From assembly GCA_036378675.1 (NCBI GenBank), contig DASUWA010000027.1:62001-126000 (forward strand): DNA of 64,000 nt, given 5' to 3'. Numbering within the stretch: position 1 is the first letter of the stretch; each line of letters opens with the position of its first letter. This document shows positions 6,186 through 23,068 of the stretch, in pieces. The stretch is from Acidimicrobiales bacterium. Lineage in GTDB: Bacteria; Actinomycetota; Acidimicrobiia; Acidimicrobiales; Palsa-688. The notes under the pieces are model-generated. The model saw only the letters and a program-made list of their open reading frames with translations, was not told where the DNA came from and made no database searches. The position numbers and the translations under genes are program-made.

Positions 6186-6213
6186 ACCTGCAACCTCTCT
6201 ATCGGCTCCGCCA

Positions 6214-7405: not shown

Positions 7406-7638
7406 CAGAGTTCTGCGAGGGCTCCGGCGAGGACTAGGGGTTTCCTAGATGATCTTTGGGCCAACATTTCAGAGAATGGTGCAGGAGGTGATGCGGCCAT
7501 TGATCGGTGACAGCCGCACTCCCGAGTCTGGACGGGTCGGCCTTGGACATCTGACCAGTTCGCGGATGGCCGCCAGAACATGCTCGGGATCGCACCGCTT
7601 GTTGCACAAGCATCAACCACAAAGGAGTGAGCCGTTCC

Positions 7639-8082
7639 ATGAGTGACACACTGCCGATCGAAAGAAAGGTCGAGGTGGCGCGGGAATTCGTTGCCCGGGT
7701 GTTCAACGAGCACCAGCCAGATCGGGCTTGCGACTACTTCACCGATGATGTCGTATGGCACGGCGGTTCCTTGGGGAAGATCGCCGGTGTCGACAACGTG
7801 GTCAACCTGCTCCGAGCTTTCATCGGTGCACTTCCGGATCTGAACGCCGCTGAACAGGATCTGATCGCCAGCGGAGATCTGGTTGCCATGCGACTGGTCG
7901 TAACCGCTACACACAGCGCCGACCTGTTGGGAATACCCAACACCGGTCGCCGCGTGCAATGGGACGCCGTCGACATCTACAGGGTGAACGACGACGGCAA
8001 GATCAGCGAAGAGTGGGCGCTCGACGATATGGCCTCATTCGCCAGCCAGCTCGGGGCGATATCACTTCCCTGGGCCGGGTAA
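7639..8082 (+). CDS. SnoaL-like / ester cyclase-like protein
   Basis: A 147-aa single-domain protein of the NTF2-like fold. The pattern REFVARVFNEHQPDRACDYFTDDVVWHG, a PDL step in the middle (IGALPDLNAAEQDLIASGDLVAMRL) and WDAVDIYRVNDDGKISEEWALDD are typical of SnoaL-like polyketide cyclases and their many uncharacterised relatives. The ATG at 7639 follows AAAGGAG at 7621-7627. No polyketide genes are nearby, so a cyclase role should not be assumed. It stands alone between divergent or convergent genes. Confidence 0.85.
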   Translation: MSDTLPIERKVEVAREFVARVFNEHQPDRACDYFTDDVVWHGGSLGKIAGVDNVVNLLRAFIGALPDLNAAEQDLIASGDLVAMRLVVTATHSADLLGIPNTGRRVQWDAVDIYRVNDDGKISEEWALDDMASFASQLGAISLPWAG

Positions 8083-8114
8083 TCCCCCCCCCGCTCTTGA
8101 ATGGTCCAGAACTG

Positions 8115-9137: not shown

Positions 9138-9295
9138 CTTGTGGTCACCGTGCAGCTGACCAATCGCGCAGGTCCATGCCGGACATTCTGTCCCGCGCCC
9201 GCCCGTGACGAGCCCGGCTCCTGTCCCCGAGCCTTGGGGCTATCAGACGACGGTGCCGATTCTCGCGTCGGCGACTCCGGCCTGGCCGGAATTGG

Positions 9296-9339
9296 TTGTC
9301 GGCCCCGCGCTCGCTCAGTGCTAGCTCCGGGGCCGACAA
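9296..9339. terminator. Long perfect inverted repeat between two secreted-protein genes
   Basis: TTGTCGGCCCCG (9296-9307) and CGGGGCCGACAA (9328-9339) are perfect 12-bp arms around a 20-base loop. The repeat lies just after the stop of the gene ending at 9359 and before the start of the lipoprotein gene, so it is well placed to terminate the upstream transcript. There is no T tract; an operator role is not excluded. Confidence 0.5.
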
Positions 9340-9358
9340 ACCGGACGGCTGGATCCCT

Positions 9359-10726
9359 CTACAGGGGAGGGAACTGAGAGTTCGGCACCGGCGCCGCCAG
9401 GTTGGCGGTCGGAGCGTCGTGGGTGAAGCCGATCACCGCACAGTTGATGTCGACACCTGACGCACCATACGCAGCCGGCTGACCGGTGGCGGGATCGACG
9501 CCGGTGATCAGGTCGGGTCGGGTGGCAGCCAGGTTGAACACCTGGTTCTCGTCGATCTGGCGCTTGTTCAGGCCCTCATCGATCGCCTTCTGAGTCCACA
9601 GGCCGAGCTGGGCGTCCCACAGGGGGCTGTATGCGTCGGCGTGGCGAGGATCGGTCAGGGTCGGGAAGTCGCCGAACACGTTGAGCAGGTCCCCTCCGTT
9701 GCGAAGGTCGTTGATCAAACCCGTGTTCGCTGCGGACGCGTCCTCGGCGCCGTGCCCGTCAACTATGAGGTTCCGGAAACCCTGGGCCTGGGGATTGTCC
9801 TCGCCCGTCTGGCCGTTGATGAACCCGAACAGGCGCTCCCTGGCCGAGCCGAGGAAGTCATCGCCGCCGTTGTATGCGGCGGTGTCGAGGGCGGGAACGT
9901 ACGTCGAGCGCTCCAGCACGGCGGTCAGGCGTTGGCCGGCGTCCGTGCTCAGGTAGACGATCGGCTGGCCGGCGTCGAATCCCTTGACGAACAGCAGGTC
10001 CGCGAACGACTGCAGGAACTGGCCCGGCGGCGACGGCGGCGCGATGTGCACGCCGAGGACGCGGTCTTCGGTGTTCGTGTGCGTGGTCACGTCGAACGGA
10101 CCGTCACCCGCCGCGACGATCGGCGCGTTGTACACGACGTCCGACCCGGCGATCTTGATGAAGGGGCTGTACCCCGGGCCTGCGACGGAGCCGGGCTGGA
10201 ACTTGGCGAGAGGGAAGCCGTTGGGGCCGGGTACTGCGATCCGGGTGGGGGTGAAGTCCGGAGCGCCCGCGAAGTGCACGACAGCGGGACCGAACTTGTT
10301 CTCGGTGGGGGTCGGGCTGTCGAGAGTCACTGTCTGCACCGCTGCCGGGTCGCTGATAGCGATGTTCGCCAGTTTGGGTGCGAAGTTGACGCCGAGGTCG
10401 TGCGCGAGTCCCTGGTCGGAGGCGTCCAGGAGGACGAACCACACCTTCTCGGTCCTGGAGGGGTTGGTCGGCACGGGTGCCGTTCCGGGGTAGAGCGGCA
10501 GCCGGACCGTCTCGTGGGTCAGGTCAACCTGGATGGCGCTCTCTTCGGTCAGGTGGTCTCTGGGCAGCAGACCACTGAGTTGGCCGAGTCCCTCCGCGGC
10601 GCCGGGACGGTCAGAGGCGTGACTCACAGGCGCGTACGCGATCTGGCTCAGAATGATCCCGGCCGATCCGCCCAACGTGAGCAAAGCGGCGATGAGTCGG
10701 GATCGGCGGACGGTAGGTCGTCTCAT
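9359..10726 (-). CDS. Secreted protein of unknown function
   Basis: 455-aa exported protein. The start MRRPTVRRSRLIAALLT gives an arginine-rich n-region and a hydrophobic helix, with a likely signal peptidase site near SHASDR. An AGGAGAG lies just upstream of the ATG at 10726, which decides against the longer frame from 11140. The mature part contains KVWFVLLDASDQGLAHDLGVNFAPKL, a repeated N/D-G-P pattern, and near the end RPDLITGVDPATGQPAAYGASG. I do not recognise a catalytic motif. It is divergent from the ECF sigma gene at 11058, which could control it. Confidence 0.7.
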   Translation of the reverse strand: MRRPTVRRSRLIAALLTLGGSAGIILSQIAYAPVSHASDRPGAAEGLGQLSGLLPRDHLTEESAIQVDLTHETVRLPLYPGTAPVPTNPSRTEKVWFVLLDASDQGLAHDLGVNFAPKLANIAISDPAAVQTVTLDSPTPTENKFGPAVVHFAGAPDFTPTRIAVPGPNGFPLAKFQPGSVAGPGYSPFIKIAGSDVVYNAPIVAAGDGPFDVTTHTNTEDRVLGVHIAPPSPPGQFLQSFADLLFVKGFDAGQPIVYLSTDAGQRLTAVLERSTYVPALDTAAYNGGDDFLGSARERLFGFINGQTGEDNPQAQGFRNLIVDGHGAEDASAANTGLINDLRNGGDLLNVFGDFPTLTDPRHADAYSPLWDAQLGLWTQKAIDEGLNKRQIDENQVFNLAATRPDLITGVDPATGQPAAYGASGVDINCAVIGFTHDAPTANLAAPVPNSQFPPL

Positions 10727-11057
10727 GTTCTCTCCTGTTCGGGTGGGGCGATGCAGAGGGCACGCGAGATTGAGCGCGGCGTGCCGACTCCTGCGAGAGC
10801 GGGCATTTGGCAGACTCTCTCCAGCTCCTTGTGCCGGCGTATAGTCCTCGGAGCGAGACGACCCGCTACAGACTTTCTGAGAATCCGCACAGACTTTTCC
10901 CGAAATTTGACAAGGGTTCGGGTCACTAATCTTTCGTGAACGAGCAGTCCTGTCCGTCGTCAAAATGGACCCTGCGAGAAAAGCGCGAACGGCGCCACCC
11001 GCGCGACTCAGGCGACGTTTGATGCTGAAGCACCAGCGTGGGGCCATTCGACAGAAC
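10727..11057. promoter_or_regulatory. Divergent promoter gap between a secreted-protein gene and an ECF sigma gene
   Basis: About 330 bases without a convincing gene. A TTGACA at 10909-10914 lies inside a short inverted repeat (CCCGAA at 10900-10905 with TTCGGG at 10918-10923), giving a plausible promoter/operator pair reading towards the sigma gene. The frame of the sigma gene is open back to 10965, so part of this stretch could be coding if an earlier start is used. Confidence 0.35.
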
Positions 11058-11678
11058 ATGACCACGATTGGCCAAGCGGGCGGCCTCAGTGACGTTGAAC
11101 TGGTCACAATGTTGCTCGACGGGAACCAACTGGCGTTCATGGAGCTGGTCGGCCGGCATCATGCGGCAATGATCCGGTTGGCTCGTTCGTATGTGTGTAG
11201 CGAGCAGATCGCCGAGGACGTGGTTCAGGAGACTTGGCTCGCCGCACTCCGCGCGCTTCCTGGCTTCGAGGGACGTTCCTCGGTCAAGACCTGGCTTTAT
11301 CGGATTCTGATAAATCGGGCTCGAAGCGTAAGGGAGAGAGAGCACAAGCACCTCCCGATCAGCAACCTGGAGCGCGCGGTTCAATCAAACCGCTTCAACA
11401 CCAACGGATCATGGTCATCGGCGCCGGCTCCATGGGTTGACGAGGTAGAGGACCGGGTTCGTGCGGAGAGACTGGCAAAGTCCATACGCACTGCGATAGA
11501 CGACCTTCCTGCTGCCCAACGAGATGTGCTGACCCTGCGGGATGTGCAGGGCATGACCGCGGCCGAAGCCTGCCGCATCCTGGACTTGTGCGACAGCCAC
11601 CAACGAGTGCTGCTGCACCGCGCGAGGAGCCGCCTCCGCAACGCCCTCGAAGCCCAGTTCTGGCAGAGCGACACTTGA
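11058..11678 (+). CDS. ECF RNA polymerase sigma factor
   Basis: About 206 aa with the two ECF domains. Region 2 covers FMELVGRHHAAMIRLARSYV to AEDVVQETWLAALRALPGFEGRSSVKTWLYRILINRAR (core binding and -10 recognition). Region 4 covers LPAAQRDVLTLRDVQGMTAAEACRILDLCDSHQRVLLHRARSRLR (-35 recognition). In-frame starts exist at 10965, 11022 and 11058; the last (MTTIGQAGG) is closest to the usual family start. Its stop overlaps the TTG of the next gene, a zinc-finger protein that should be its anti-sigma factor. The promoter it reads is unknown. Confidence 0.88.
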   Translation: MTTIGQAGGLSDVELVTMLLDGNQLAFMELVGRHHAAMIRLARSYVCSEQIAEDVVQETWLAALRALPGFEGRSSVKTWLYRILINRARSVREREHKHLPISNLERAVQSNRFNTNGSWSSAPAPWVDEVEDRVRAERLAKSIRTAIDDLPAAQRDVLTLRDVQGMTAAEACRILDLCDSHQRVLLHRARSRLRNALEAQFWQSDT

Positions 11679-11941
11679 GGCTCTCACGACGCCGACCGCT
11701 CACCTGCGTGGAGGTCGTTGAACTGGTCACAGAGTATCTGGAGGGCGCGTTGTCCCGAGTTGATCGGCGCCGCTTCGAAGTTCACCTGTCCGGATGTCCT
11801 CATTGCGGCGAGTTTCTCAGGCAGATGCAGATGACGATCGCCATCACCGGAGAACTGAGGGTTGATGATCTCAGCCCCGAACTGCAACAGGATTTCATGG
11901 CGCTGTTTCGGTACTGGAGATCGGAGCGCGTTGATCGGTGA
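11675..11941 (+). CDS. Zinc-finger (zf-HC2) anti-sigma factor
   Basis: 88-aa protein beginning with TTG at 11675, overlapping the stop of the sigma gene (TTGA), so translation is probably coupled. It contains LTCVEVVELVTEYLEGALSRVDRRRFEVHLSGCPHCGEFL: the H-x3-C-x2-C zinc site and preceding helices of the zf-HC2/ZAS anti-sigma family. There is no transmembrane segment, so it should act in the cytoplasm, perhaps as a redox or zinc-sensitive regulator. A longer frame from 11588 lies inside the sigma gene and is not expected to be used. Confidence 0.8.
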   Translation: MRLSRRRPLTCVEVVELVTEYLEGALSRVDRRRFEVHLSGCPHCGEFLRQMQMTIAITGELRVDDLSPELQQDFMALFRYWRSERVDR

Positions 11942-12053
11942 GCGCCAGTAGTCCCACCAGGTGCCTCATCGCGCTCGGGAAGGTTGCCTCGGATCTCCTG
12001 TCAGCCCAACCGGTTGTAGATGAGGGCACGATCGTTGCCATGAAATAGTCGCC

Positions 12054-12776
12054 GTGCCAACTCTGCTCGACCGTGCCGGTTACGCGGTAGTCAAGGTACG
12101 ATCACAGTCTGTGAGCACCGCCGACCGTGCCGCCTCGGTAGGACCGGGAGTCAAGGAAGGGCGAGCAGTCGATGCAGAGACCGCCGAGTGGCTCGCATCG
12201 CTCCGCGGCCAGGAGCCGGAGGAAGCCATCACCCGGCTGCATGACTTGCTCCTCCGTGTAGCCCGCAGTGAACTCAGCCGGCGCAACTCTTCCAGACAGA
12301 TCACCGGGCCCGAACTCGACGACCTGGCCCATCAGGCGGCGGCCGACGCCGTACTCCATATCACCCGGCGGATCGATGACTTCCGAGGCGAGAGCCGCTT
12401 CACCACATGGGCCTGCAAGTTCGTGATCTTCGAAGTATCCAGCAAACTGGGACGCCACTTCTGGACCAACCGGCGGGCGGGCGGTGACGACCTCGATTGG
12501 GACCGACTGCCCGAGCGATTCGGGGCGCTCCCGGCGGAAGTGGCCGAATCCCGCGAGCTCGTGGCCGCCGTGCGCGCCGGGGTGGAGAACTGCCTCACTG
12601 ACAAGCAGCGAGACGTGTTCACCGCCATAGTGGTGCAAGGCATCCCGTTGGATGCTCTCGTGCTCAGGATGGACACCAACCGCAACGCCATCTACAAGCT
12701 CATGTTCGACGCCAGGCAGAAGCTTCGGCAAGAGCTCACGGCCCGTGGCTTCATCGACCTGAGGGAGATGCAATGA
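12054..12776 (+). CDS. ECF-like sigma-70 family factor
   Basis: 240 aa from GTG 12054, or 221 from GTG 12111 (VSTADRAAS), which may be the better start. Region 2 is seen as LDDLAHQAAADAVLHITRRIDDFRGESRFTTWACKFVIFEV, and region 4 as CLTDKQRDVFTAIVVQGIPLDALVLRMDTNRNAIYKLMFDARQKLR. The region-2 signature (F-RGES-FTTW) is that of ECF factors. Its stop codon overlaps the ATG of a small zinc-binding protein (ATGA), forming a second sigma/anti-sigma pair 100 bases after the first one. Confidence 0.82.
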   Translation: MPTLLDRAGYAVVKVRSQSVSTADRAASVGPGVKEGRAVDAETAEWLASLRGQEPEEAITRLHDLLLRVARSELSRRNSSRQITGPELDDLAHQAAADAVLHITRRIDDFRGESRFTTWACKFVIFEVSSKLGRHFWTNRRAGGDDLDWDRLPERFGALPAEVAESRELVAAVRAGVENCLTDKQRDVFTAIVVQGIPLDALVLRMDTNRNAIYKLMFDARQKLRQELTARGFIDLREMQ

Positions 12777-12991
12777 CCGGGCTGCCCGCATTCGAGCGGT
12801 TCCTCAACACTGATCCCGAGGATGTCGGGTGCGACGAGGCGATGGCAGTCCTGCACATTTATGCCGAGATCGTTGCCAACGGCGAAGACCCCGACGTGCT
12901 GTATCCGGGCGTCACTGCTCACCTTCGCGCGTGCGGCCCGTGCGCGGAAGACCTTCAGGGATTGCTCGAAGCCATCCGTTCGACATCCTGA
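12773..12991 (+). CDS. Very small zinc-binding anti-sigma candidate
   Basis: 72-aa protein whose ATG overlaps the stop of the preceding sigma gene. It has a cysteine near residue 20 (DVGCDEAM) and the motif HLRACGPCAEDLQGLL, that is H-x3-C-x2-C, as in zf-HC2 anti-sigma factors. It has no membrane segment. Position, overlap and motif together make it the likely cognate regulator of the 12054 sigma factor, though it is shorter than most family members. Confidence 0.72.
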   Translation: MTGLPAFERFLNTDPEDVGCDEAMAVLHIYAEIVANGEDPDVLYPGVTAHLRACGPCAEDLQGLLEAIRSTS

Positions 12992-13111
12992 TACCTCTTG
13001 CATCGAAGATCGCCCGTTCGGTTGGAACAACGCACGCTCGTCGGCGGTCCGATGTGCTACGGCGGTTTCGGCGGCAACCGGTCACGCGAACGAGGGGTGT
13101 CGCCTCCCGCT

Positions 13112-14455
13112 TTAGCGGCGGACATTTGCTCCAAACGGCTGGTCGAGAACGAACTGGGCGACCTGCTGCCCAAGAGCGCTTCCGGCGTTGACGTCGATGC
13201 TCGTGTGCTGACCGGCGAAGATGCGGCTCATACCGGCTTCGTCGGCGGCGGCCTGGAAGCCGGCGAAGTTCCGGGTCACGCCCGCTAGAGCATCCGAGCT
13301 GACCGTAACTGGGCGGTCAGGTCCGAAGAAGGCTGACAGGACCGTGGCTGCAGCTCCGCTTATGGTGCTGTGCGCAGCAGGGTAGGACGGGTCCGCTGCG
13401 GTGTTCCCGGCCTGGGGCAGCCAGGTGGTATTGGCGGGATCGACGGCCGGGTTGCCGGGGGTGCCGGCGCGTATGGCTGTTACGGGCCTCCACAGCTGAT
13501 AGTGGTACTTGGCGTCGTAGAACGCGATGGCGCTGTCGGCGAAGGTCAGGTTCAGATCGGCCAGCAGGTGAGACGATTCCTCGAGGCTGGTTCTGTTCTC
13601 GGTGATCTGGTTGTCGGCGATCTCGTTCCACGTGTTCCAGATCGGCGGTGCCCAGAACTTCGCAATCGTCGTTTCGTCGGGTGTACGCGTGGTGCTTGTG
13701 TTCTGTCCGAGGCTCTGGACCTGGTTGATTGCATCCGCCCACTGGGGACTCGTGAGAGGGGGCGGTGACGGGGGCCTGAACCGGTTGCCGGCTTCGAGCA
13801 CCCAGGGCGTGATGGTGCCCCAGTTCGTGAACACCGCGGGAGCGAAGTTCGGTGGGGTGAGCTGGTAGCCACCTGGCTGCGGGGGGTTGGAGGGGACGAA
13901 AGGATTTGGAGCGGTTGCCGAACCATCGTTCGCTCGCAAGGCGAGAAGGATGGTTGCTGCCCGACTTCCTACGACTATCCCGGAGTGCTTGGCCGCCGAC
14001 TCGGGTATCGCGGCGAGCTGCGTTGCCAGCAGTTGATTGAGCTCGGGGGCGAAACTGGGGAAGAGAGCGAGCAGGGTGTCGTGGGCGGCCTGGTCGGCCG
14101 CGGCATCTGGTCGTGCGGAATGTGGTGCGACCACGCTGAACTGATAGGGGTTGTCGGCGCGGGTGATCGACACGACGGCGTCATATACGGCGGTGTTCAG
14201 GAGCGCGAAACTTCGAGTGGGGTGGATGGTGGCGGGCTGCGCTCCCGGGGTCAGCTCGATCCTGAGCAGCTCTTTGTTCCAATCGACGGCGATCTGCCCG
14301 CTCCCGGGCTTGAAGGCCGCTAGGGGGCCGCCTCGATCGGCGTTGAAGTTCGCTGACGTCGTCGTGTCGCCGTTGGCCGGCCCGGGAGCCGCAAACGCGC
14401 CAGCGGCGATGAGAGCCGTGCCGAGCGCGGCGAGCGTAATCATTTTCCTCTTCAT
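13112..14455 (-). CDS. Secreted vanadium-dependent haloperoxidase / PAP2-superfamily protein
   Basis: 447-aa exported protein with a signal peptide (MKRKMITLAALGTALIAAGAFA). Three motifs of the PAP2/vanadium haloperoxidase fold are in order: KYHYQLWRPVTAIR (lysine and arginine that bind the phosphate or vanadate), PSYPAAHSTISGAAA (serine and acid-base histidine), and SRIFAGQHTSIDVNAG (arginine and the histidine that holds vanadate). Chemistry could be halide oxidation or phosphatase activity; the motifs do not decide. The ATG at 14455 has AAGGAG upstream. It lies downstream of another secreted-protein gene on the same strand. Confidence 0.85.
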   Translation of the reverse strand: MKRKMITLAALGTALIAAGAFAAPGPANGDTTTSANFNADRGGPLAAFKPGSGQIAVDWNKELLRIELTPGAQPATIHPTRSFALLNTAVYDAVVSITRADNPYQFSVVAPHSARPDAAADQAAHDTLLALFPSFAPELNQLLATQLAAIPESAAKHSGIVVGSRAATILLALRANDGSATAPNPFVPSNPPQPGGYQLTPPNFAPAVFTNWGTITPWVLEAGNRFRPPSPPPLTSPQWADAINQVQSLGQNTSTTRTPDETTIAKFWAPPIWNTWNEIADNQITENRTSLEESSHLLADLNLTFADSAIAFYDAKYHYQLWRPVTAIRAGTPGNPAVDPANTTWLPQAGNTAADPSYPAAHSTISGAAATVLSAFFGPDRPVTVSSDALAGVTRNFAGFQAAADEAGMSRIFAGQHTSIDVNAGSALGQQVAQFVLDQPFGANVRR

Positions 14456-14555
14456 GTTCGAATAGCTCCTTCGTTGTTGCGTTTGTTGTGTCGGCATATA
14501 AGGACGGGCGCAGGGTGCTGGTAGGGAAGGAACCGCACCCAGCGCTCCATCCGGC

Positions 14556-15692
14556 CTAGGAGTTGGGGACTATGTCGCCGAAGATCCCGTCGGCTTCGTG
14601 GTTCGGGCCCGCAGTGAAGTACAGAGCGCCTGCGACGACGTTCAGGGAGCCTGCCGGAAAGCGCAGACCCCAAAGGCCGTCGATCGTGAGAGGACCGTGG
14701 CTGCTTTCGAGCTGCCCGAGAAACTGACCGGTGACAGGGTTGAAGGCGTTGATGCGGCCGTCTCCGAAGTTACCGACGAGGATGTCGCCGGCGAACTGCC
14801 CGAATGTGGACGGCGCAAGTGTTACGGCCCAGGGAGAGTCCAGCTTGCCTTCACTGGCGAAGCGCCGCAGCAGATCTCCGTTCGGAGCGAACACGTCGAC
14901 GAAACCGTTACCAGGGCCGGCGTCGTCATCGTGCTTGAAGGCGTCCTGCTTGGCAAAGGTCACAAACAGCTTGCCCCCTATGTTGTGAATACCAAACGGT
15001 GCGAATCCGGCCGGGATGGTCGGGTCGGTGAAGGTGTTGACCGGCTCGAACTTGGAGTTGAACACCTCGACTGTCCCGAACCGGAAGTTGGTCGCGTAGA
15101 TGAAGCTCGCCGTCGGCGTGCTAACGAGCGCCAGTCCCTTGTAGACCGCCCCGACGTCCCCCGCTGCGTCTCGGGCCCTGGAGCTGTCGACCGCCCTCAC
15201 CGCATGAGTCGGATCGACGCCAGGGTTCCAGCCGGCGATGACGCCGTCTTCGGTCGCCCAGAGGAACTTGCTCGGGCCGGACGCCACACCATTGGAGACG
15301 GCGAATCCCGTGGTCGGATTGAAAACGGTCCCATCCGGGGTGCCGGCCGCGCCAGCGCCAGCCGAAGCGGGAGGGGGGATGGACACGACGAGTTGTTGAT
15401 TTCCAGACCCTGGTTGGGGATTGCCTTGACCGTCGTAGAGGGTCGACACACCGGCTGCGTTGTCGGAAACCCATATCGGCAGTCCAGGCCCTGTCGAGGT
15501 TCCCCACGAGTTCTTCAGGTTGGGATCGGTATGTGTAGCCAGGCCGGGAATGTCGGAAACGAGGTTGGTCTGCGCGTAGGAACGGCTGGTCGAGTTGGCA
15601 AGCGCGCCTGGCGCGCTCACTGTCAACCCGACGGTCGTGGACGTGGCGGCGAGCGCCGCAAACACCGCGGCACGTTTTGCAATTTTCTTCAT
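14556..15692 (-). CDS. Secreted TIGR03118-like propeller protein
   Basis: 378-aa exported protein starting MKKIAKRAAVFAALAAT, with a signal peptide ending near ALANS. The opening YAQTNLVSDIPGLATHTDPNLKNSWGTSTGPGLPIWVSDNAAGVSTLYDG and the later WATEDGVIAGWNP and YATNFRFGTVEVFNSKF are characteristic of the TIGR03118 family, predicted beta-propellers found in secreted or cell-wall proteins. No function is established. It is upstream of the haloperoxidase-like gene on the same strand with about 100 bases between them. Confidence 0.82.
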   Translation of the reverse strand: MKKIAKRAAVFAALAATSTTVGLTVSAPGALANSTSRSYAQTNLVSDIPGLATHTDPNLKNSWGTSTGPGLPIWVSDNAAGVSTLYDGQGNPQPGSGNQQLVVSIPPPASAGAGAAGTPDGTVFNPTTGFAVSNGVASGPSKFLWATEDGVIAGWNPGVDPTHAVRAVDSSRARDAAGDVGAVYKGLALVSTPTASFIYATNFRFGTVEVFNSKFEPVNTFTDPTIPAGFAPFGIHNIGGKLFVTFAKQDAFKHDDDAGPGNGFVDVFAPNGDLLRRFASEGKLDSPWAVTLAPSTFGQFAGDILVGNFGDGRINAFNPVTGQFLGQLESSHGPLTIDGLWGLRFPAGSLNVVAGALYFTAGPNHEADGIFGDIVPNS

Positions 15693-15802
15693 CAGATCTC
15701 TCTCTTGTCAGGGTCGGGGGGAGTCGGCGTATGAACCGCGCTCGGCGACATCCAGGCCGAACGTCGGATTAAGCCGGAGCCGCTAGACGATGGGACGCCA
15801 TG

Positions 15803-15844
15803 GCGTAACCCGGCAACGTCATCAGATAGGACGCCGGGTTACGC
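15803..15844. repeat. Perfect 12-bp inverted repeat carrying the GTAAC motif on both strands
   Basis: GCGTAACCCGGC (15803-15814) and GCCGGGTTACGC (15833-15844) are perfect inverted arms around 18 bases. On the minus strand the right arm reads GTAAC-N7-CCTATC (15842 to 15825), one base from the motif seen before the sigma genes. It lies upstream of the TIGR03118-like gene and could be its operator, or a terminator after the STAS gene. Confidence 0.45.
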
Positions 15845-15889
15845 GGCTCCGACTGAATCCTGCAGATTAGAGAGAGGGACTGAATGACG

Positions 15890-16207
15890 TTAGGCAGCGT
15901 CGCTGGTATCGGCACCGACGAATTGACGCTCGAGTCCGAGCAGCTGCAGGCGTGTTCGAACTGGTGGCGGCATGTTGGAGACTCGAAGATCACCATGAAT
16001 GCTCCGGATGAGACGTGCCGAACCAAGAAGGGCACTTATCCCTACAGCGTCTAACGACACCACATCCCGAAGATCGAGGTCGACACGAACGAACGGCCTG
16101 AGTACCTCGTGTACTGCGTGCCTCAAGGCGGTTGCGCTGCACCAGTCGAGGTCCCCAATTGGACGGATGCACACCGCTCCATCAGGGTAAGTCTCAGTCT
16201 TGATCAT
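15890..16207 (-). CDS. STAS-domain protein lacking the usual phospho-serine
   Basis: 105-aa single STAS domain, MIKTETYPDGAVCIRPIGDLDW to GADTSDAA. The loop that normally reads D-S-S-G is here VSLDAVGISALLG, so the phosphorylated serine is replaced by valine. This suggests binding that is not switched by phosphorylation, if it is an anti-anti-sigma factor at all. The ATG at 16207 has AAAGGA six bases upstream. The promoter gap carries the GTAAC-N7-CGTATC motif, divergent from the one before the UbiB-like gene. Confidence 0.78.
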   Translation of the reverse strand: MIKTETYPDGAVCIRPIGDLDWCSATALRHAVHEVLRPFVRVDLDLRDVVSLDAVGISALLGSARLIRSIHGDLRVSNMPPPVRTRLQLLGLERQFVGADTSDAA

Positions 16208-16280
16208 GATGTTCCTTTCGCGACCAGCGCGATGATGCCGGCCCAAAATCGGTCGTCTCTGGGTGGACGCTTCGGTATCT

Positions 16281-16298
16281 GATACGCAGGCGGGTTAC
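16281..16298 (-). promoter_or_regulatory. GTAAC-N7-CGTATC motif before the STAS gene
   Basis: Minus strand reads GTAAC, 7 bases, CGTATC. It ends 74 bases before the ATG at 16207. Confidence 0.5.
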
Positions 16299-16332
16299 CC
16301 GCAGCAAGACAATCGTCCGGTCGTCGGCCGCG

Positions 16333-16349
16333 GTAACCATCCCCGTATC
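16333..16349 (+). promoter_or_regulatory. GTAAC-N6-CGTATC motif before the UbiB-like gene
   Basis: Plus strand reads GTAAC, 6 bases, CGTATC, about 112 bases before the ATG at 16462. It is divergent from the site before the STAS gene, 35 bases away. Confidence 0.45.
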
Positions 16350-16461
16350 TGTTTGATGACGGACTCACCCGAATTGCTTGCCACTGAGACAGGTTGGTGA
16401 CGACCTCTGCAGCGCATGTCCGGGGGGTTCTCGGTGCTCTAGTGACAGGGAGGAAAAAGGG

Positions 16462-17892
16462 ATGCGAAGTCGACTGCCCACCGGCCGTTTCAGTCGCTCC
16501 GCACGTTTGGCCGGGCTCGCCGGGCGGACCGTGGTCAACCGGGCCGAGACCCGCGTCGGTCGTCGATTTGGAGGCGAGAGAGCACAGGCGGCCGAGCGGG
16601 CCCGCCAGGCCCGGCTCGCAGAGCGCTACCGGCGGGTCATGGGCGACATGAAGGGCGCCACCATGAAGGCCGGCCAGATCCTCTCCTTCGTGGACATGGA
16701 TGCCCTGATCCCGGCTTCGCAGCGCGACATGTTTCAGTCCGCGTTGACCGGCCTGCAAGATGATGTGCCGCCACTGGCGCTCGAAGAGATCTCAGGAGTG
16801 ATCCACAGCGAGCTCGGAGCTCCACCGGAGAGGCTCTTCGCCTTCTTCTCCGCCGAGCCCGTTGCCGCGGCCTCCATCGGTCAGGTACATCTCGCTCGAC
16901 TGGGTGACGGGACAGAAGTAGCGGTCAAGGTCCAGTATCCAGGAGTCGCCGAAGCGGTCCGGGCTGATCTGGCGAACACGGAATTGTTCGCAGGGGCGAT
17001 AGGCACCGCGCTGAGGTTCCTCGGTCCCCGAGCCCCCAGAATCGATCCAAGGGTATTGGCGGAGGAGATACGAGACCGTGTCACCGACGAACTGGACTAC
17101 CGGTTGGAGGCCGCCAGCCAAGAGACGTTCCACGCCCTCTACGAGGGCCACCCGTACATTCACGTCCCCCGGGTGTACGGAGAACTGTCGACCGGCAGGG
17201 TTCTGGTCAGCGATTACGTTCACGGACAACGCTGGACCTCAGCCATCACCGCTCCACCCGACGTTCGCTCCCGGTGGGGGGAGGGCATCTTCCGGTTCGT
17301 GTACACCAGCTTGTACCGCCACGGCCTGTTCAACGCCGACCCGCACCCCGGCAACTTCCTGTTCCACGAGGACGGTGGAGTGACTTTTCTCGACTTCGGC
17401 TCCGTACAAAGGTTCGACGACGAGCAGTTGAAGGCGATGTCCGCCCTACTGGACGCCACCTTTGCATCCAGTGCGACGGACGTCACCAGGGCGTTGAAAT
17501 GTCTGGGAATGCTCAGCGGTGACGACGCCAGCGCGCTCGACCACGAGCGCCTCCTCGACTTCTATCGCGCCGTGCTCGCCGACCGGGTATCGCCACAGCC
17601 GTTCACGTTCACGCCGCAATGGGCCGGTGAGATCGTCGCTCACACCTACCAGCCGCTCGGTCCGTGGTACGACGTCACTCGACGACTCCGCATGCCCAAG
17701 CAGCTGCTGTACCTCAATCGGATCCTGATCGGAGCCAGCTCCGTACTCGGGCACCTCTACGCCACCGCCGACTGGCGAGCGATCGACCACGAGATTCGTC
17801 ACGGGGGCCCGCCGGCCACCAGCCTCGGCCGCGCAGAAGCCAACTGGCGCGCCCGTCGAATGGATAGTCAGGGAGTCCGGGAAACAGCCTAA
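16462..17892 (+). CDS. ABC1/UbiB-family atypical kinase-like ATPase
   Basis: 476-aa protein of the UbiB/ADCK family, linked in other organisms to quinone or lipid metabolism. The family's own motifs are present: KAGQILS (the KxGQ element), AAASIGQVH (the alanine-rich loop replacing the glycine loop), VAVKVQYPG (ATP-binding lysine), DELDYRLEA, NADPHPGNFLF (catalytic loop) and FLDFGSV (the DFG equivalent). The ATG at 16462 follows GGGAGGAAAAAGG. No C-terminal membrane helix is clear. It carries the GTAAC motif in its leader, so it may belong to the regulon of the neighbouring sigma factors rather than to quinone synthesis. Confidence 0.88.
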   Translation: MRSRLPTGRFSRSARLAGLAGRTVVNRAETRVGRRFGGERAQAAERARQARLAERYRRVMGDMKGATMKAGQILSFVDMDALIPASQRDMFQSALTGLQDDVPPLALEEISGVIHSELGAPPERLFAFFSAEPVAAASIGQVHLARLGDGTEVAVKVQYPGVAEAVRADLANTELFAGAIGTALRFLGPRAPRIDPRVLAEEIRDRVTDELDYRLEAASQETFHALYEGHPYIHVPRVYGELSTGRVLVSDYVHGQRWTSAITAPPDVRSRWGEGIFRFVYTSLYRHGLFNADPHPGNFLFHEDGGVTFLDFGSVQRFDDEQLKAMSALLDATFASSATDVTRALKCLGMLSGDDASALDHERLLDFYRAVLADRVSPQPFTFTPQWAGEIVAHTYQPLGPWYDVTRRLRMPKQLLYLNRILIGASSVLGHLYATADWRAIDHEIRHGGPPATSLGRAEANWRARRMDSQGVRETA

Positions 17893-17899
17893 GCCAGTT

Positions 17900-17917
17900 G
17901 TAACTCGAGCCCGTATC
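17900..17917 (+). promoter_or_regulatory. GTAAC-N7-CGTATC motif before the first duplicated sigma operon
   Basis: GTAACTC, five further bases, then CGTATC, directly after the UbiB-like gene and 42 bases before the preferred ATG at 17960. This would allow autoregulation. Confidence 0.5.
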
Positions 17918-17959
17918 TCCTTGTGTGATGACAGCGAACGTTCGTCTGCCGCCGGCGCA

Positions 17960-18559
17960 ATGAGCTCCTCGCCCTGGATACGAGGTGTGTACCGGCGCCC
18001 GGCGTCATACGAGCGGGAACGCGAATCGGATCATGCCACCTTCGTTCCTTTGACCCGGTTGGAGGATTCCGTCTATCCGGACTGGGATTCGGCTTACCTG
18101 GACAACGTCGGCCTCCTATATCGCCTGATGTACTCCAAAGTCGGGAACCGCGCCGACGCTGAAGATCTGACTGCTGAAGTGTTCCGCGCGGCGCTCGGTC
18201 CCCTGCGATTGTCGGCGTCGAAAGGGGAGGTGCGCTCATACCTGCTCGCCACGGCTCGGACTGTCCTGGCATCACACTGGCGCCGCCGATATGGGCTCGA
18301 GATAACGCAAATCGACCCCTATGCCAACCTCGCCTACGAGGTCTCCCCCGCCCCCGATACTGATGCCGGTCCGCGTGTCGCGACGATCCTCGCCGGACTG
18401 CCGGAGCATTACCGGCGAGTCCTCGAGTTGCGGTTCTTGCAGGGCTGCTCGATCAAGGAGGCAGCTAGTGCGTTGGGCATCAGTGTGAACAACACCAAAG
18501 TCCTCCAGCACCGAGCCCTGCGGATGGCGGCTCGAATGGAAGAGGAGCCGGACCGATGA
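17960..18559 (+). CDS. ECF sigma factor, copy A of a tandem duplication
   Basis: About 199 aa. Region 2 includes LYRLMYSKVGNRADAEDLTAEVFRAALGPLRLSASKGEVRSYLLATARTVLASHWR and region 4 includes LPEHYRRVLELRFLQGCSIKEAASALGISVNNTKVLQHRALRMA. It is a close paralogue of the gene at 19689, with long identical runs such as VGNRADAEDLTAEVFRAAL. An in-frame TTG at 17921 gives a longer form; ATG 17960 (MSSSPWIRG) gives an N-terminus like that of the paralogue. The stop overlaps the ATG of the membrane partner gene. Confidence 0.86.
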   Translation: MSSSPWIRGVYRRPASYERERESDHATFVPLTRLEDSVYPDWDSAYLDNVGLLYRLMYSKVGNRADAEDLTAEVFRAALGPLRLSASKGEVRSYLLATARTVLASHWRRRYGLEITQIDPYANLAYEVSPAPDTDAGPRVATILAGLPEHYRRVLELRFLQGCSIKEAASALGISVNNTKVLQHRALRMAARMEEEPDR

Positions 18560-19278
18560 CCGACCACGAGGTCGATACATTCGTGGACGCTCTCCTGAAC
18601 GACCAGACTCCCAAACGGTTCCCGGCCACCCGGGAGGACCGCGACATATTGCGGATAGCAATTGAGTTGCGAACCCGGCAGACCGAACGCATCAGCCCCG
18701 AACCGTCGTTCGTCGAGCAGCTGCATCTACATTTGGCGTCCGCTCTCAGAGGCGGGGCGAAGATCCTCCCGCTTGATAGCAGCGGTCTGTACAGGGGTGA
18801 ACGTCGTCCGATGACAGCACGCCTCGGCACAGACCCTGCTTCGGCCGGGCGTATCTCCCGGAAGTTCCGGGGAGCTGCCAAGGCGGCAGCGGCGGCGCTT
18901 CTGGTGGCAGGAACGTTTACCGCCACACGTCTGACAGATAGTCACTCGCCCGTGCCCGTGGCGCAAAGCGCCGTCAACGCCGGCGGGGTTCGCTCCGGGG
19001 TGCTGGTTGGCGCCGATGGTCGAACCCTGGGACGGGCATACGCCTACACGGGGGACCCGTCGTGGGTGTTCATGGACGTCCATACCAGCGGCCTGAGCGG
19101 CCTCTACGTGTGCCGCCTGCAATTGGCAGACAGCAGCACCATCCTCGCCGGGGTGCTCACCGTCCACAACGGGACCGGCGATTGGGCCCACACCATCAAG
19201 GTTCCGGCGGCCCAGCTGCGAGAGGCGACCCTGGTGGCTCCAAACGGCTCCATCATGGCCCGGGCTACGTTCTCCTAG
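18556..19278 (+). CDS. Membrane-anchored anti-sigma candidate, copy A
   Basis: 240 aa, starting inside the sigma stop codon (ATGA). The N-terminal 100 residues are charged and cytoplasmic (DHEVDTFVDALLNDQTPKRFPATREDRDILRIAIELR), one hydrophobic helix follows (AAKAAAAALLVAGTFTA, about 113-129), and the last 110 residues should lie outside: SGVLVGADGRTLGRAYAYTGDPSWVFMDV to the end MARATFS. This layout fits a single-pass anti-sigma factor with an external sensor domain. It has no zinc-finger motif, so the class is unrecognised. Its paralogue is at 20276. Confidence 0.72.
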   Translation: MTDHEVDTFVDALLNDQTPKRFPATREDRDILRIAIELRTRQTERISPEPSFVEQLHLHLASALRGGAKILPLDSSGLYRGERRPMTARLGTDPASAGRISRKFRGAAKAAAAALLVAGTFTATRLTDSHSPVPVAQSAVNAGGVRSGVLVGADGRTLGRAYAYTGDPSWVFMDVHTSGLSGLYVCRLQLADSSTILAGVLTVHNGTGDWAHTIKVPAAQLREATLVAPNGSIMARATFS

Positions 19279-19511
19279 GGCACGTAGCGCTGGGCCCCAG
19301 GCCGCGAGAAGTGGTCCCAGCGGGGCAGGCGCTCTGCCACGTCTATGACGATCGAGGCCACCACAAGGGCAAAGCCGAGCCTCCACCTTTCGCACAGCGA
19401 GAGCGGGTGGCACTCCTCTTGAACGATCGACAGGTGCTCCGCGGAGCGCCGGTCGACGCCCACTCTCGGCCACCGATTCGTTTCGGTTTCCGTGTCGAGG
19501 CGTGTTGCCAT
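19275..19511 (-). CDS. Small protein of unknown function with one hydrophobic helix
   Basis: 78-aa gene on the opposite strand between the two sigma operons. The ATG at 19511 has a good AAGGAG at 19518-19523, and a GTAAC-type motif lies about 40 bases upstream. The sequence is SLCERWRLGFALVVASIVIDVAERLP with a single possible membrane helix, flanked by polar segments. Its stop overlaps the stop of the copy A partner gene by 4 bases. I do not recognise a family. The promoter and ribosome site make it more than a chance frame. Confidence 0.55.
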   Translation of the reverse strand: MATRLDTETETNRWPRVGVDRRSAEHLSIVQEECHPLSLCERWRLGFALVVASIVIDVAERLPRWDHFSRPGAQRYVP

Positions 19512-19552
19512 CTCATTCTCCTTGTGTTGCCTGCATAGGCTCTCCCAAAGGA

Positions 19553-19569
19553 GATACGCGCCGAGTTAC
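19553..19569 (-). promoter_or_regulatory. GTAAC-N6-CGTATC motif before the small minus-strand gene
   Basis: Minus strand reads GTAAC, 6 bases, CGTATC, about 41 bases before the ATG at 19511. Confidence 0.45.
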
Positions 19570-19659
19570 GGCCGAGAGGCGCCTATTGTTCGCTTGACTA
19601 AACAACTCCGAGCCGACTGGCGCGCCGCCTGTGACGGAGACGGGCGAAACGGCGGCTCT

Positions 19660-19677
19660 GTAACCCCTCTGCGTATC
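19660..19677 (+). promoter_or_regulatory. GTAAC-N7-CGTATC motif before the second duplicated sigma operon
   Basis: Plus strand reads GTAACCC, five bases, CGTATC, only 11 bases before the ATG at 19689. If it is a promoter, the transcript would be nearly leaderless. Confidence 0.5.
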
Positions 19678-19688
19678 TACATCCGACT

Positions 19689-20279
19689 ATGGGTTCTTCA
19701 TATGCACTGACCCCCCTGTCTGGATCAGAATCCGAGCGCCCCCGGACGAGAGCGCACCTTCACTTGCTGGACGCCAACACCTATCCCGACTGGGAAGCGG
19801 TCTACCGAGACAACGTGAGCCGCCTTTATGGGCTCATGTACTCCCGCGTGGGTAACCGCGCCGACGCCGAAGACCTGACTGCCGAGGTGTTCCGTGCAGC
19901 ATTGAAACCTCTACGTCTCGCCGCTTCCAAGGGGGAGGTCCGTTCCTACCTGCTGGTGACCGCCCGGACGGTCCTGGCCTCGCATTGGCGGCGGACCCTC
20001 GGCCAGCCGGTGACCATGATCGATCCCGACGTAGACGTCGAGTGGCTTTCCGATCCCCCTCCAGAAGGAAACCCGACCACCGAGTCAACGGAGCGGGTGG
20101 GACAAATCCTTTCCGCCCTGCCTGACCGTTACCGTCAGATCCTGGAGCTTCGCTTCTTGCATGCATCCTCGCTCAAGGAGGCGGCCGAAGTTATGAACGT
20201 GTCTGTAGGTAACGCCAAAGTCCTCCAGCACCGGGCACTGCAGATGGCCAGTAGCGTGGCGATGGAGATGGACTCATGA
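19689..20279 (+). CDS. ECF sigma factor, copy B of a tandem duplication
   Basis: 196 aa, MGSSYALTPLSG to MEMDS. Region 2 (LYGLMYSRVGNRADAEDLTAEVFRAALKPLRLAASKGEVRSYLL) and region 4 (LPDRYRQILELRFLHASSLKEAAEVMNVSVGNAKVLQHRALQMA) closely match copy A at 17960. No Shine-Dalgarno sequence lies before the ATG, and the GTAAC-CGTATC element is 11 bases upstream, which fits a leaderless message. The stop overlaps the ATG of the membrane partner (ATGA), as in copy A. Confidence 0.87.
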   Translation: MGSSYALTPLSGSESERPRTRAHLHLLDANTYPDWEAVYRDNVSRLYGLMYSRVGNRADAEDLTAEVFRAALKPLRLAASKGEVRSYLLVTARTVLASHWRRTLGQPVTMIDPDVDVEWLSDPPPEGNPTTESTERVGQILSALPDRYRQILELRFLHASSLKEAAEVMNVSVGNAKVLQHRALQMASSVAMEMDS

Positions 20280-20926
20280 CCAAGCGCCACCGTGAGAAGT
20301 ATGTCGACTCGTTGCTCGAAGACCGGCGGCCACCTCGGTTCGACGCCGATCCTGACGACGCCGAGTTCATCCGCACTGCGATTACCCTGCGCGCCGCCCG
20401 TGGTGATCTGGCGGCACCTCGCGATGAGTTCATGTCGGGACTCTTCGACGAGTTGGCTGCTGTCCACGGCGAACATGGAGAGCCGCCCGACACGTCGGTT
20501 GCAATGTTCCATCGGCCGAGACGTGCGGCGATCGTTTCGGCGGCCGCGGCGGCGGTTCTTATCGGCGGGACCTTCGGGGTGACAGAGGCGGTGAATCACG
20601 GCAGGTCGGCGCCGGCCGCCGTCGCCAAGGGCGGCATTCACAGCTCTGTGCTTCTCGACGTCGACCATCGGGCGGTCGGCCGTGTCAACCTCTACGGTGG
20701 CAGTCCCGCCTGGGTGTTCATGAACCTGAACGACCCCGGACATGACGGGACCGTCGTCTGTCAGCTCAGAGGTGCCAATGGGAACGTCGAGGTTGCCGGC
20801 GCCTTCCAGCTCACGGGCGGCGAAGGCGAGTTTGCGCGAACGATCAAGGTCAACCTCACCGACGTCAGGTCCGCGAGCATCGTCACTTCGACCGGCATCA
20901 CCCTCGCGACGGCGACCTTTTCGTAG
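20276..20926 (+). CDS. Membrane-anchored anti-sigma candidate, copy B
   Basis: 216 aa with the same architecture as copy A: an N-terminal charged domain (KYVDSLLEDRRPPRFDADPDDAEFIRTAITLR, aligned with the copy A segment), one transmembrane helix (IVSAAAAAVLIGGTFGVTEAV, about 82-102) and an external C-terminal domain (SSVLLDVDHRAVGRVNLYGGSPAWVFMNL) ending in TATFS as copy A ends in RATFS. Both copies keep the xGxxWVFM core and a single cysteine (VVCQL / YVCRL) in the external domain. The ligand is unknown. Confidence 0.72.
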   Translation: MTKRHREKYVDSLLEDRRPPRFDADPDDAEFIRTAITLRAARGDLAAPRDEFMSGLFDELAAVHGEHGEPPDTSVAMFHRPRRAAIVSAAAAAVLIGGTFGVTEAVNHGRSAPAAVAKGGIHSSVLLDVDHRAVGRVNLYGGSPAWVFMNLNDPGHDGTVVCQLRGANGNVEVAGAFQLTGGEGEFARTIKVNLTDVRSASIVTSTGITLATATFS

Positions 20927-20985
20927 GCCTGAGGGCGGCCGGACAGGGCGTGGAACTCGGCCAACCGGCCGCATCCCGCCAGCCC

Positions 20986-21882
20986 TCAGATGAGCGAAAG
21001 CCGCCTGATGGCCTCCCAGTCCAGGTGAACCTCGGATACAGCGACATTCTCCACGAGGTGGCTGAGCGACGACGTGCCAGGAATCAGCAGCACGTTCGGA
21101 GAAATGCGCAGGGTCCAGGCCAGGACCACCTGCGCCGCCGTGATGCTCAGGCGCGCGGCCTCGCGGAGCACCTCGGGCCTTCCGAGTACAGACCGAGGAT
21201 CGGAGCCACCCGATCCGAGCGGCGCGGACGGCACGAACGCGATGTGCCGTCGGGCGCATTCGTTCAACTGCGGCTGGGACCGGCGGTTCCCCAAGTGGAA
21301 GGCGTTCTGTACGCAGGCCAGGTCCGTGAACTGGAGGGCGTGGAGCAGCTGGGGAAGTGTGACATTGCTGAGCCCAATCGATTTGACCAATCCGTCGTCA
21401 CGGGCTGACACCATCGCGTCAAGCTGATCGTCGAAGAACAGGTTCGGTTCCCCCCGCCGCATCACCTGGAGGTTGACGACACCCAGGGCGTCCACCCCGA
21501 GCTTTCGGAGGTTGTCCTCGATGCTCCGGCGCAGGTCTCTGGGATCATCGTCGGCGAGGAAGCCCCCGTGGCGGTCTCGTCGCGCCCCGACCTTGGTGAC
21601 CAGGACGAGGTCCTCGGGGTAGGGATACAGGGCCTCACGAATGAGCTCGTTCACGATATCCGGCCCGTAGAACTGGGCGGTGTCGATGTGATTCACACCC
21701 GCGCGGACCGCTTCTCGCAGCACTGCGAGCGCCTCTCGGCGATCCCTGGGTGGTCCGAACGCGTTCGGCCCCGCGAGCCGCATTGCGCCGAGACCGAGAG
21801 GCGAGACCGAGAACGGGCCCAACGCGCGCTGATCCCCGTGAACTTCGAATTGTTCAGTTGCTGTGGAACGAGATGGGCGCAT
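20986..21882 (-). CDS. Aldo/keto reductase
   Basis: 298-aa TIM-barrel oxidoreductase using NAD(P)H. Visible family motifs are LGLGAMRL at the first strand, GVNHIDTAQFYG (the aspartate and tyrosine of the catalytic tetrad) and LVLVTKVG (the lysine). The loop that usually holds the fourth residue, a histidine (LYQLH), reads VVNLQVM here, so His is not conserved; some oxidoreductase-type members share this. The C-terminus has the cofactor-binding LLIPGTSS. It is 2 bases after the membrane protein gene at 21885, on the same strand, so they are probably one operon. Confidence 0.85.
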   Translation of the reverse strand: MRPSRSTATEQFEVHGDQRALGPFSVSPLGLGAMRLAGPNAFGPPRDRREALAVLREAVRAGVNHIDTAQFYGPDIVNELIREALYPYPEDLVLVTKVGARRDRHGGFLADDDPRDLRRSIEDNLRKLGVDALGVVNLQVMRRGEPNLFFDDQLDAMVSARDDGLVKSIGLSNVTLPQLLHALQFTDLACVQNAFHLGNRRSQPQLNECARRHIAFVPSAPLGSGGSDPRSVLGRPEVLREAARLSITAAQVVLAWTLRISPNVLLIPGTSSLSHLVENVAVSEVHLDWEAIRRLSLI

Positions 21883-21884
21883 GG

Positions 21885-22439
21885 CTAGTTCTCAATGTTG
21901 GCGTGCGGGCGGCTGACGAAGGTGGTGATCACGCGCCCTCCTACGTCAGGCGATGTGCGCGGGTCCTCCCAAAAGCGGCGCCACAGTCGCGACTCCTGGA
22001 ACAGATCCAGCCCGATCCACGCTGCCAGACTGAGAGCGCCGACCGCCTCCAGAACGATTGATTCGACGGCGAAAGGGGCGCTTAACGACTCGGTGAACCC
22101 GAACAGGCCGGCGTTGACGCTCACGACCAGCCCCCCGAGTATTCCCGCGAGCAAAGCGATCCCCAGGAAGCCGAGCAGACGGCTGGGCCGAAGCAGCAGG
22201 CCGGCTGCAAGGACGAAGGCACCTATGGTTGTGGCAAGGAACAAAGGCCCGATGGTGGCGATGTGGCGGTAGCCGACCTCCCACAAATGCAGATGAATCC
22301 ATCCAACAGCGGCCAGGAGCCCGACGGAAACTAGTCGGATGACCAGGACGCCAACCTCAACGGCGTCACCTCGAGCTCGGATCTTTCTGTGGTGTGCTGA
22401 TGCAACCGACCCAGCTGCCAACAGGTCTCTCGTTCTCAT
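21885..22439 (-). CDS. Integral membrane protein, four helices, unknown function
   Basis: 184 aa with four hydrophobic segments (ISO: VLVIRLVSVGLLAAVGWIHL, then PLFLATTIGAFVLAAGLLL, LLGFLGIALLAGILGGLVV and ESIVLEAVGALSLAAWIGL). The ATG at 22439 has GAGGAG upstream, and the leader carries the GTAAC-type motif at 22472-22489. The pattern of helices and the GxIH motif in the first helix recur in the divergent gene at 22577, suggesting paralogues. It is followed directly by the aldo/keto reductase gene. Confidence 0.65.
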   Translation of the reverse strand: MRTRDLLAAGSVASAHHRKIRARGDAVEVGVLVIRLVSVGLLAAVGWIHLHLWEVGYRHIATIGPLFLATTIGAFVLAAGLLLRPSRLLGFLGIALLAGILGGLVVSVNAGLFGFTESLSAPFAVESIVLEAVGALSLAAWIGLDLFQESRLWRRFWEDPRTSPDVGGRVITTFVSRPHANIEN

Positions 22440-22471
22440 CGTTGATACTCCTCTACTAACTGTCGGGTGGA

Positions 22472-22489
22472 ATTACGCCGATCAGTTAC
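22472..22489 (-). promoter_or_regulatory. GTAAC-N7-CGTAAT motif before the minus-strand membrane protein gene
   Basis: Minus strand reads GTAAC, 7 bases, CGTAAT (one base from CGTATC), 32 bases before the ATG at 22439. Confidence 0.4.
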
Positions 22490-22525
22490 AGGGATCAAGG
22501 GGCAGCGGCGGAGAGACACCTTGAC

Positions 22526-22543
22526 GTAACCCGGCGTCGTATC
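22526..22543 (+). promoter_or_regulatory. GTAAC-N7-CGTATC motif before the plus-strand membrane protein gene
   Basis: Plus strand reads GTAAC, 7 bases, CGTATC, 33 bases before the GTG at 22577. It is divergent from the site at 22472. Confidence 0.5.
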
Positions 22544-22576: not shown

Positions 22577-23068
22577 GTGAGAAATGCTGCTGGCAACCCC
22601 GCCGCCCAGTCGATCGACACGAACGACGCCGTGCTGCGCGCCACGGGGGTACTAATGCTCCTCGCTATCGGCACGATCCACTTCTTGCAGATCGTTCCGA
22701 CGACAGAGCAGACACCGCTACTCGGCGTGGCGTTCTTGGGGATCATCGCAGCTTCCCTCGCCGTCGCCGTGTGGCTAGCCCACCAGGGGAGCCGCCTCGT
22801 GTGGACCGCTGGCGCGACGGTCTGCGCTGCAGCGATAGGGGGCTACGCCTTTACCCGCATTTTCAGCACGCCCATCGACAACCAAGACGTCGGCAACTGG
22901 TCATGCATGCTTGGTATGGCTGCCCTCTTCGTGGAGACGACCCTCCTCGGTCTCAGCGTTTACAGGGCCAGAGCCCAACGACTGGTGCTCACCGCAGTAG
23001 CCGAGCTCCCACGCAGTCAACGTAGTCAACGAAGGCGCGCAACCCGTGGAGACCCGAACGCCGCCTGA
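22577..23068 (+). CDS. Integral membrane protein, four helices, unknown function
   Basis: 163 aa starting with GTG after a clear GGAGG. There are four hydrophobic segments: GVLMLLAIGTIHFLQI, LLGVAFLGIIAASLAVAVWL, LVWTAGATVCAAAIGGYAF and MLGMAALFVETTLLGLSVY. The C-terminus is basic (RSQRSQRRRATRG). It shares the GxIH motif in helix 1 and the overall layout with the divergent gene at 21885-22439. The leader carries the GTAAC-CGTATC motif, so both should respond to the same regulator. No known family is assigned. Confidence 0.66.
   Translation: MRNAAGNPAAQSIDTNDAVLRATGVLMLLAIGTIHFLQIVPTTEQTPLLGVAFLGIIAASLAVAVWLAHQGSRLVWTAGATVCAAAIGGYAFTRIFSTPIDNQDVGNWSCMLGMAALFVETTLLGLSVYRARAQRLVLTAVAELPRSQRSQRRRATRGDPNAA

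Follow-up and report, generated by a model that had tools for sequence, protein, structure and literature searches.

A two-part motif with a fixed 7-bp spacer as the probable autoregulated promoter of an actinobacterial ECF σ factor clade

ECF σ factors are taken to need promoter boxes 16–17 bp apart, a distance set by the RNA polymerase (RNAP) scaffold, and promoter predictions usually assume this type of spacing. What, then, is the role of a signal whose two conserved parts stand much closer together and which recurs around ECF σ factor genes? The 64,000-nucleotide stretch of Acidimicrobiales DNA analysed here (the window) contains such a signal, GTAAC-N6/7-CGTATC, around a duplicated ECF σ/anti-σ pair. 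The original prediction regarded its spacing as too short for a standard ECF −35/−10 pair and proposed an operator or an unusual promoter belonging to an undescribed local regulon. The analysis described below points to the second of these: the motif is probably the cognate autoregulated promoter of an ECF clade, with a non-canonical −25/−11 geometry, which suggests that the clade starts transcription from a promoter type outside the textbook arrangement.

The cluster in the window holds six exact copies of the motif and two variants, each found in the window letters where it had been predicted. With one mismatch allowed, the N7 form has six matches in the window, against 0.29 expected and with none of 100 shuffles reaching six, and the N6 form has two. 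When compared by computation with the list of open reading frames (ORFs), all eight sites are intergenic and of constant polarity: of the two halves it is always CGTATC that lies nearer to the start codon at which the copy points, with GTAAC on the far side. The genes behind them are those originally proposed, namely both σ operons, a STAS gene, a UbiB-like gene, a small gene and two membrane protein genes, together with the operon behind the 15825 variant.

Exact N7 copies on the plus strand precede both σ genes, one at 17900–17917 before σ copy 1 (17960–18559, +) and the other at 19660–19677, 11 nt before the ATG of σ copy 2 (19689–20279, +), whose region 4 is of the SigD/BldN type; the two σ proteins are about 56–60% identical to each other. 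Each is followed by a gene for a probable membrane anti-σ factor (18556–19278 and 20276–20926, both +), which overlaps the σ stop codon, has no Pfam match and has a homologue after σ in 76 of 80 loci; one transmembrane stretch is predicted by reading in the first copy. An exact N6 copy at 19553–19569 (−) precedes a small gene (19275–19511, −) whose product has no assigned function. Further upstream, an exact N7 copy at 16281–16298 (−) stands before the gene for a STAS domain protein (15890–16207, −) and an exact N6 copy at 16333–16349 (+) before that for an ABC1/UbiB atypical kinase-like protein (16462–17892, +). The most likely starts of these two genes, 16207 and 16462, both have a Shine-Dalgarno sequence, on which the choice of the STAS start was based. 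At the other end of the cluster, a CGTAAT form with N7 spacing (22472–22489, −) faces the gene for a small membrane protein (21885–22439, −), a relative of which is found in the conserved gene cluster of Antrihabitans, and an exact N7 copy (22526–22543, +) precedes the gene for a membrane protein without assigned function (22577–23068, +). No motif was seen before the aldo/keto reductase gene (20986–21882, −), which is also present at the C51 locus described below. A further σ70-like gene followed by a small gene lies at 12054–12776, with no motif copy nearby.

The remaining copy, at 15825–15842 (−), has the CCTATC form (GTAACCCGGCGTCCTATC) and lies before an operon whose likely first gene encodes a TIGR03118 family secreted protein (14556–15692, −), followed by a vanadium-dependent haloperoxidase of the PAP2 superfamily (13112–14497, −; PDB 4cit, E = 1.7e-19). 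The haloperoxidase is 52% identical to an Amycolatopsis protein encoded divergently from a σ gene, behind a divergent motif. Originally listed as a near copy, the 15825 site is a genuine variant: C(C/G)TAT is a form met frequently across the clade. The site also belongs to an inverted repeat at 15803–15844, of which it makes up one of the two perfectly matching 12-bp arms (GCGTAACCCGGC / GCCGGGTTACGC, with a loop of 18 nt). As single-stranded DNA this repeat has a folding z of −4.4; it may be a leader hairpin, another weak motif in the divergent direction or a product of chance.

Genome-wide occurrence at the random rate had been named as one outcome that would speak against the motif. Across the genome containing the window (4.1 Mb in 75 contigs), the exact motif has 10 matches compared with 2 for a reversed control, and the refined consensus 12 compared with 2, so the motif withstands this check. 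Six of the 10 exact copies belong to the window cluster, three lie at 94–98 kb of another contig, C51, and one is at C27:157965. The C51 copies stand beside a third σ/anti-σ pair, absent from the original prediction, whose σ is 75% identical to the protein encoded at 19689 and whose anti-σ is 69% identical to that encoded at 20276. One C51 motif precedes the σ gene; another points in the opposite direction, toward a gene for a protein that looks, on visual inspection, like the product of the small gene at 19511; and the third precedes a Lipoprotein_15 secreted-repeat gene, the 18 bases of the window copy at 22526–22543 being found identically before the lipoprotein gene on C51. In both the 19689 and the C51 σ loci, 11 nt separate the CGTATC half from the ATG. 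The exact match at C27:157965 falls within a gene, at its 3′ end, and probably arose by chance, and neither it nor the matches at C53:7562 and C55:36135 precede a correctly stranded gene, so all three were treated as chance. Within positions 5683–17295 of the C51 stretch, the third σ locus is flanked by genes for cytochrome bc1- and cytochrome c oxidase-like subunits, as judged by reading ORF translations.

Relatives of the σ factor carry the same signal. Among 80 homologous σ genes from Acidimicrobiia, Mycobacterium, Nocardia, Amycolatopsis, Actinokineospora, Kutzneria, Frankia, Kribbella, Streptomyces and others, GTAAC-N9-TA(T/C) is found before the σ factor’s own operon in 75 loci when 260 bp upstream are searched, with a 76th (L113) just beyond that limit, and in 17 of 19 loci of a second set, which was drawn from other genomes and shares some members with the first. 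The computed spacing is fixed: none of the 80 loci has these elements at distances of 0–8, 10, 11 or 14–22, two have them at 12, and a minor class of 15 loci has them at 13. When the spacer is left free (GTAACCC-N(1-24)-CGTAT, 12 genomes), 35 of 58 matches fall at the GTAAC-N7-CGTAT spacing and the remainder are scattered. The general consensus is TGTAACCC-N5-(C/G)NTAT(C/T), with a GATAT form at Mycobacterium σ promoters, and the spacer is 7 (rarely 6) bp rather than the canonical ECF distance of 15–18 bp. On this sequence evidence, the motif is a signature of the whole ECF clade across several actinobacterial orders and much of the phylum Actinomycetota. Since it marks the clade so widely and a third locus is present in the same genome, the regulon is not the local one that had been proposed.

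The presence of the motif also follows that of the σ factor. In 249 genomes of Mycobacteriales, the order around Amycolatopsis, a genome-by-genome computation found GTAACCC-N5-C(C/G)TATC in 11 of 19 σ-positive genomes versus 4 of 230 σ-negative ones (Fisher P = 2e-11, a value that overstates independence because the genomes are related). An over-strict pattern, TGTAACCC-N5-CGTATC, was found in only 3 of the 249 genomes and has low power. In the window’s own family (32 genomes), the GTAAC(C/T)C form is found in exactly the three that have the σ factor.

The likely position of the transcription start is indicated by a gene that follows σ and anti-σ in most loci and encodes a conserved cupredoxin-like lipoprotein (a name given from sequence, with no Pfam match in the single stretch tested). 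About 38 such loci, belonging to several genera, were compared, and in most of them the ATG of this gene is computed to lie 8 nt (sometimes 7) after TAT, leaving no room for a Shine-Dalgarno sequence between the two, and in two loci (L095 and L148) it is the sole possible start ahead of the lipobox. In Actinocrispum, the haloperoxidase gene is read from a divergent motif and a GTG stands at the same distance of 8 nt. With the cupredoxin ATG so near to TAT, the transcript cannot begin any later than that codon, and at this leaderless distance TAT behaves as a −10 element (about −11 to −9), which places GTAACCC at about −25 to −19. We infer a start about 7–9 nt after TAT. The leaderless evidence comes mostly from one gene family, as these are cupredoxin genes downstream of σ in the same direction, and the leaderless form is not general, as leaders at other targets are longer and include a Shine-Dalgarno sequence. 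GTAACCC is thus placed about one helical turn closer than the 16–17 bp ECF spacing, and no conservation was found at the canonical −35 place, 10 bp upstream of GTAAC (information near zero across 66 sites). The fixed spacing and this empty −35 place bear out the initial view that the motif is too short for a standard ECF pair.

The σ protein matches the Pfam families Sigma70_r2, r4 and r4_2 above cut-off and, having regions 2 and 4 only, is an ECF (group IV) factor. Its AlphaFold model (mean pLDDT 85) shows nothing unusual in region 2, the linker or region 4, the solved structures closest to the model are ECF factors, and no extra conserved domain was found in either the sequence alignment or the model. 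Region 4 matches that of Mycobacterium SigD (35% identity, 1.1 Å), while a search with the whole σ profile has BldN (PDB 6dxo) as its best match by sequence; a score of 76.6 bits against the BldN family model TIGR02952, whose cut-off is 206, marks the protein as related to that family and not a member. The Corynebacterium glutamicum SigD box is GTAAC(A/G), and in the modelled SigD a Val contacts the T of GTAAC (PMC6338062); the BldN promoter is CGTAAC-N16-CGTTGA (PMC2375139). Val178 (numbering of the 19689 protein) aligns with the SigD contact Val in our own alignment and is invariant in 43 sequences. The likeness to SigD and BldN, the GTAAC contained in both of their boxes and the shared Val favour recognition of GTAAC by region 4, which probably reads it, this being the least certain part of the explanation. 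ECF structure and assays have established a rigid spacer with an optimum of 17 bp (PMC6411747), and region 4 docked on the β flap should therefore not reach −25.

Two versions of the promoter reading differ in how they deal with this difficulty. One, which we put forward tentatively, is that the whole ECF clade directly recognises −35-type and −10 boxes 7 bp apart, with region 4 at about −25. The other, which we consider rather unlikely, has σ reading the TAT −10 element only, with an activator encoded elsewhere that sits on GTAACCC, at about −25, and from there keeps hold of region 4 in the manner of PafBC. There is a precedent in the PafBC promoters, where the box is at −26 and PafBC is inserted between SigA region 4 and DNA (PMC11804915); without an adaptor a 17-bp spacer is required (PMC6411747), and the adaptor geometry calls for no new σ structure. 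Against it, the genes conserved around σ in the 80 loci encode the anti-σ, the cupredoxin, a metallophosphoesterase and a membrane protein, and no DNA-binding protein was noticed among them in a non-exhaustive scan whose ORFs are partly out of frame, so that an adaptor, if any, would be encoded elsewhere. It would also need to be common to several actinobacterial orders while leaving few sites in σ-less genomes, and region 4 already looks suited to GTAAC. Direct reading by region 4 is ranked slightly ahead.

Readings that dispense with this geometry fare worse. A separate regulator could bind the motif as an operator and control the gene group, with no promoter role for the motif itself. This was part of the initial proposal, and some divergent pairs do look palindromic, but we regard it as improbable given the constant polarity, the fixed leaderless distances, the co-occurrence with σ and the failure to find a linked transcription factor. 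The specific form of a palindromic dimer operator (GGTTAC-N2/3/4-GTAACC in abutting divergent pairs) was rejected, as the gap between divergent copies can be anything between 2 and 53 bp and many sites have no partner. The fixed distance to leaderless starts, together with the absence of a conserved linked transcription factor from the scan, makes a promoter more likely than a plain operator, and of the two original options it is the unusual promoter that gains from the fixed spacing, the constant polarity and the frequent start codons at leaderless distance. A canonical ECF promoter, with GTAACCC as the −35, a weak GRTGR 17 bp downstream as the −10 and CGTAT as a second signal within the spacer, is less probable still. 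SigD and BldN are known to use GTAAC as their −35, and purines are mildly enriched 17–22 bp after it; yet a −10 placed at 16–18 bp amounts to this weak bias, in contrast to the nearly invariant TAT, and the start would fall downstream of the cupredoxin ATG, which in L095 and L148 is obligatory. The converse assignment, CGTAT as the −10 with a −35 at 16–17 bp upstream, finds no conservation at that place, and a SigA −10 (TANNNT) was ruled out, its final T being present in 5% of sites only.

Under the preferred reading, in which the motif is the promoter of the clade itself, TAT(C/T) would be the −10 element recognised by σ region 2, with transcription starting about 7–9 nt downstream, and GTAACCC the box recognised upstream of it, which would lie at about −25 to −19 and not at −35; with region 4 at GTAAC, the arrangement would resemble an ECF promoter from which roughly one helical turn has been removed. 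Release of σ by the membrane anti-σ would allow the holoenzyme to transcribe the σ/anti-σ operon itself and, in addition, envelope and redox genes, including those for vanadium haloperoxidase, cupredoxin, secreted repeat lipoproteins and small membrane proteins, joined in the window genome by the UbiB-type kinase and STAS genes. The candidate regulon in the window consists of TIGR03118 plus the vanadium haloperoxidase, STAS, the UbiB-type kinase, the two σ/anti-σ operons, the small gene and the two membrane proteins, and envelope and redox functions are the common theme of the predicted targets. Actinocrispum has nine sites, several of them before secreted proteins.

Other arrangements of the signal were observed along the way. 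In Actinocrispum and Amycolatopsis stretches (L164, L165, L169 and L171), several motifs precede paralogous secreted proteins with a shared N-terminus, VKRRLI...HPNVD...AAYDAYKSF. In six loci (L090, L092, L098, L100, L105 and L116), divergent σ and haloperoxidase copies upstream of σ have their GTAAC boxes 2–4 bp apart, so that two RNAPs could hardly bind there together. In two Pseudonocardia MAGs (L102:317 and L154:1730), GTAACTACTAC(G/T)CGTATTAGTAGAC-ATG stands before another σ-like gene, 8 nt from the ATG; it contains the palindrome CTACTA/TAGTAG and may or may not be related to the motif.

A literature search, outside which lay the motif predictions of the ECF re-classification (doi 10.1093/nar/gkaa1229), found no ECF promoter with such a spacer. 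It also found no functional study of the σ clade and no paper joining an ECF σ, a haloperoxidase and a cupredoxin. The analysis provides this widespread clade with a promoter signature and a likely role in the control of envelope and redox genes, including those for vanadium haloperoxidase and cupredoxin. The retention of a 7-bp spacer across several orders would mean either that region 4 can act from a different position or that an ECF σ is aided, as SigA is by PafBC, by an adaptor so far unrecognised.

Direct reading of boxes 7 bp apart, with region 4 at about −25, would be a holoenzyme geometry that we know of for no other σ70-family factor. The promoters of σ54 have −24/−12 boxes, and the distance between boxes and start is similar here; the likeness is one of geometry only, as the protein family and the box sequences are unrelated. 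PafBC-dependent (RecA-NDp) promoters likewise cannot do without a box at about −26, which is closely followed by a −10 (PMC11804915), but PafBC works with SigA, whereas the −10 described here lacks TANNNT and the gene group belongs to an ECF σ. Autoregulation of the SigD/BldN type has the most in common with the present system, sharing a σ with regions 2 and 4, a neighbouring gene for a putative membrane anti-σ, a motif before the σ factor’s own operon, a GTAAC box and a similar region 4. It differs in the −10 element, which is GAT or CGTTGA in those promoters and NNTAT(C/T) here, and in the distance between the boxes, about 16 bp there and 7 bp in this clade.
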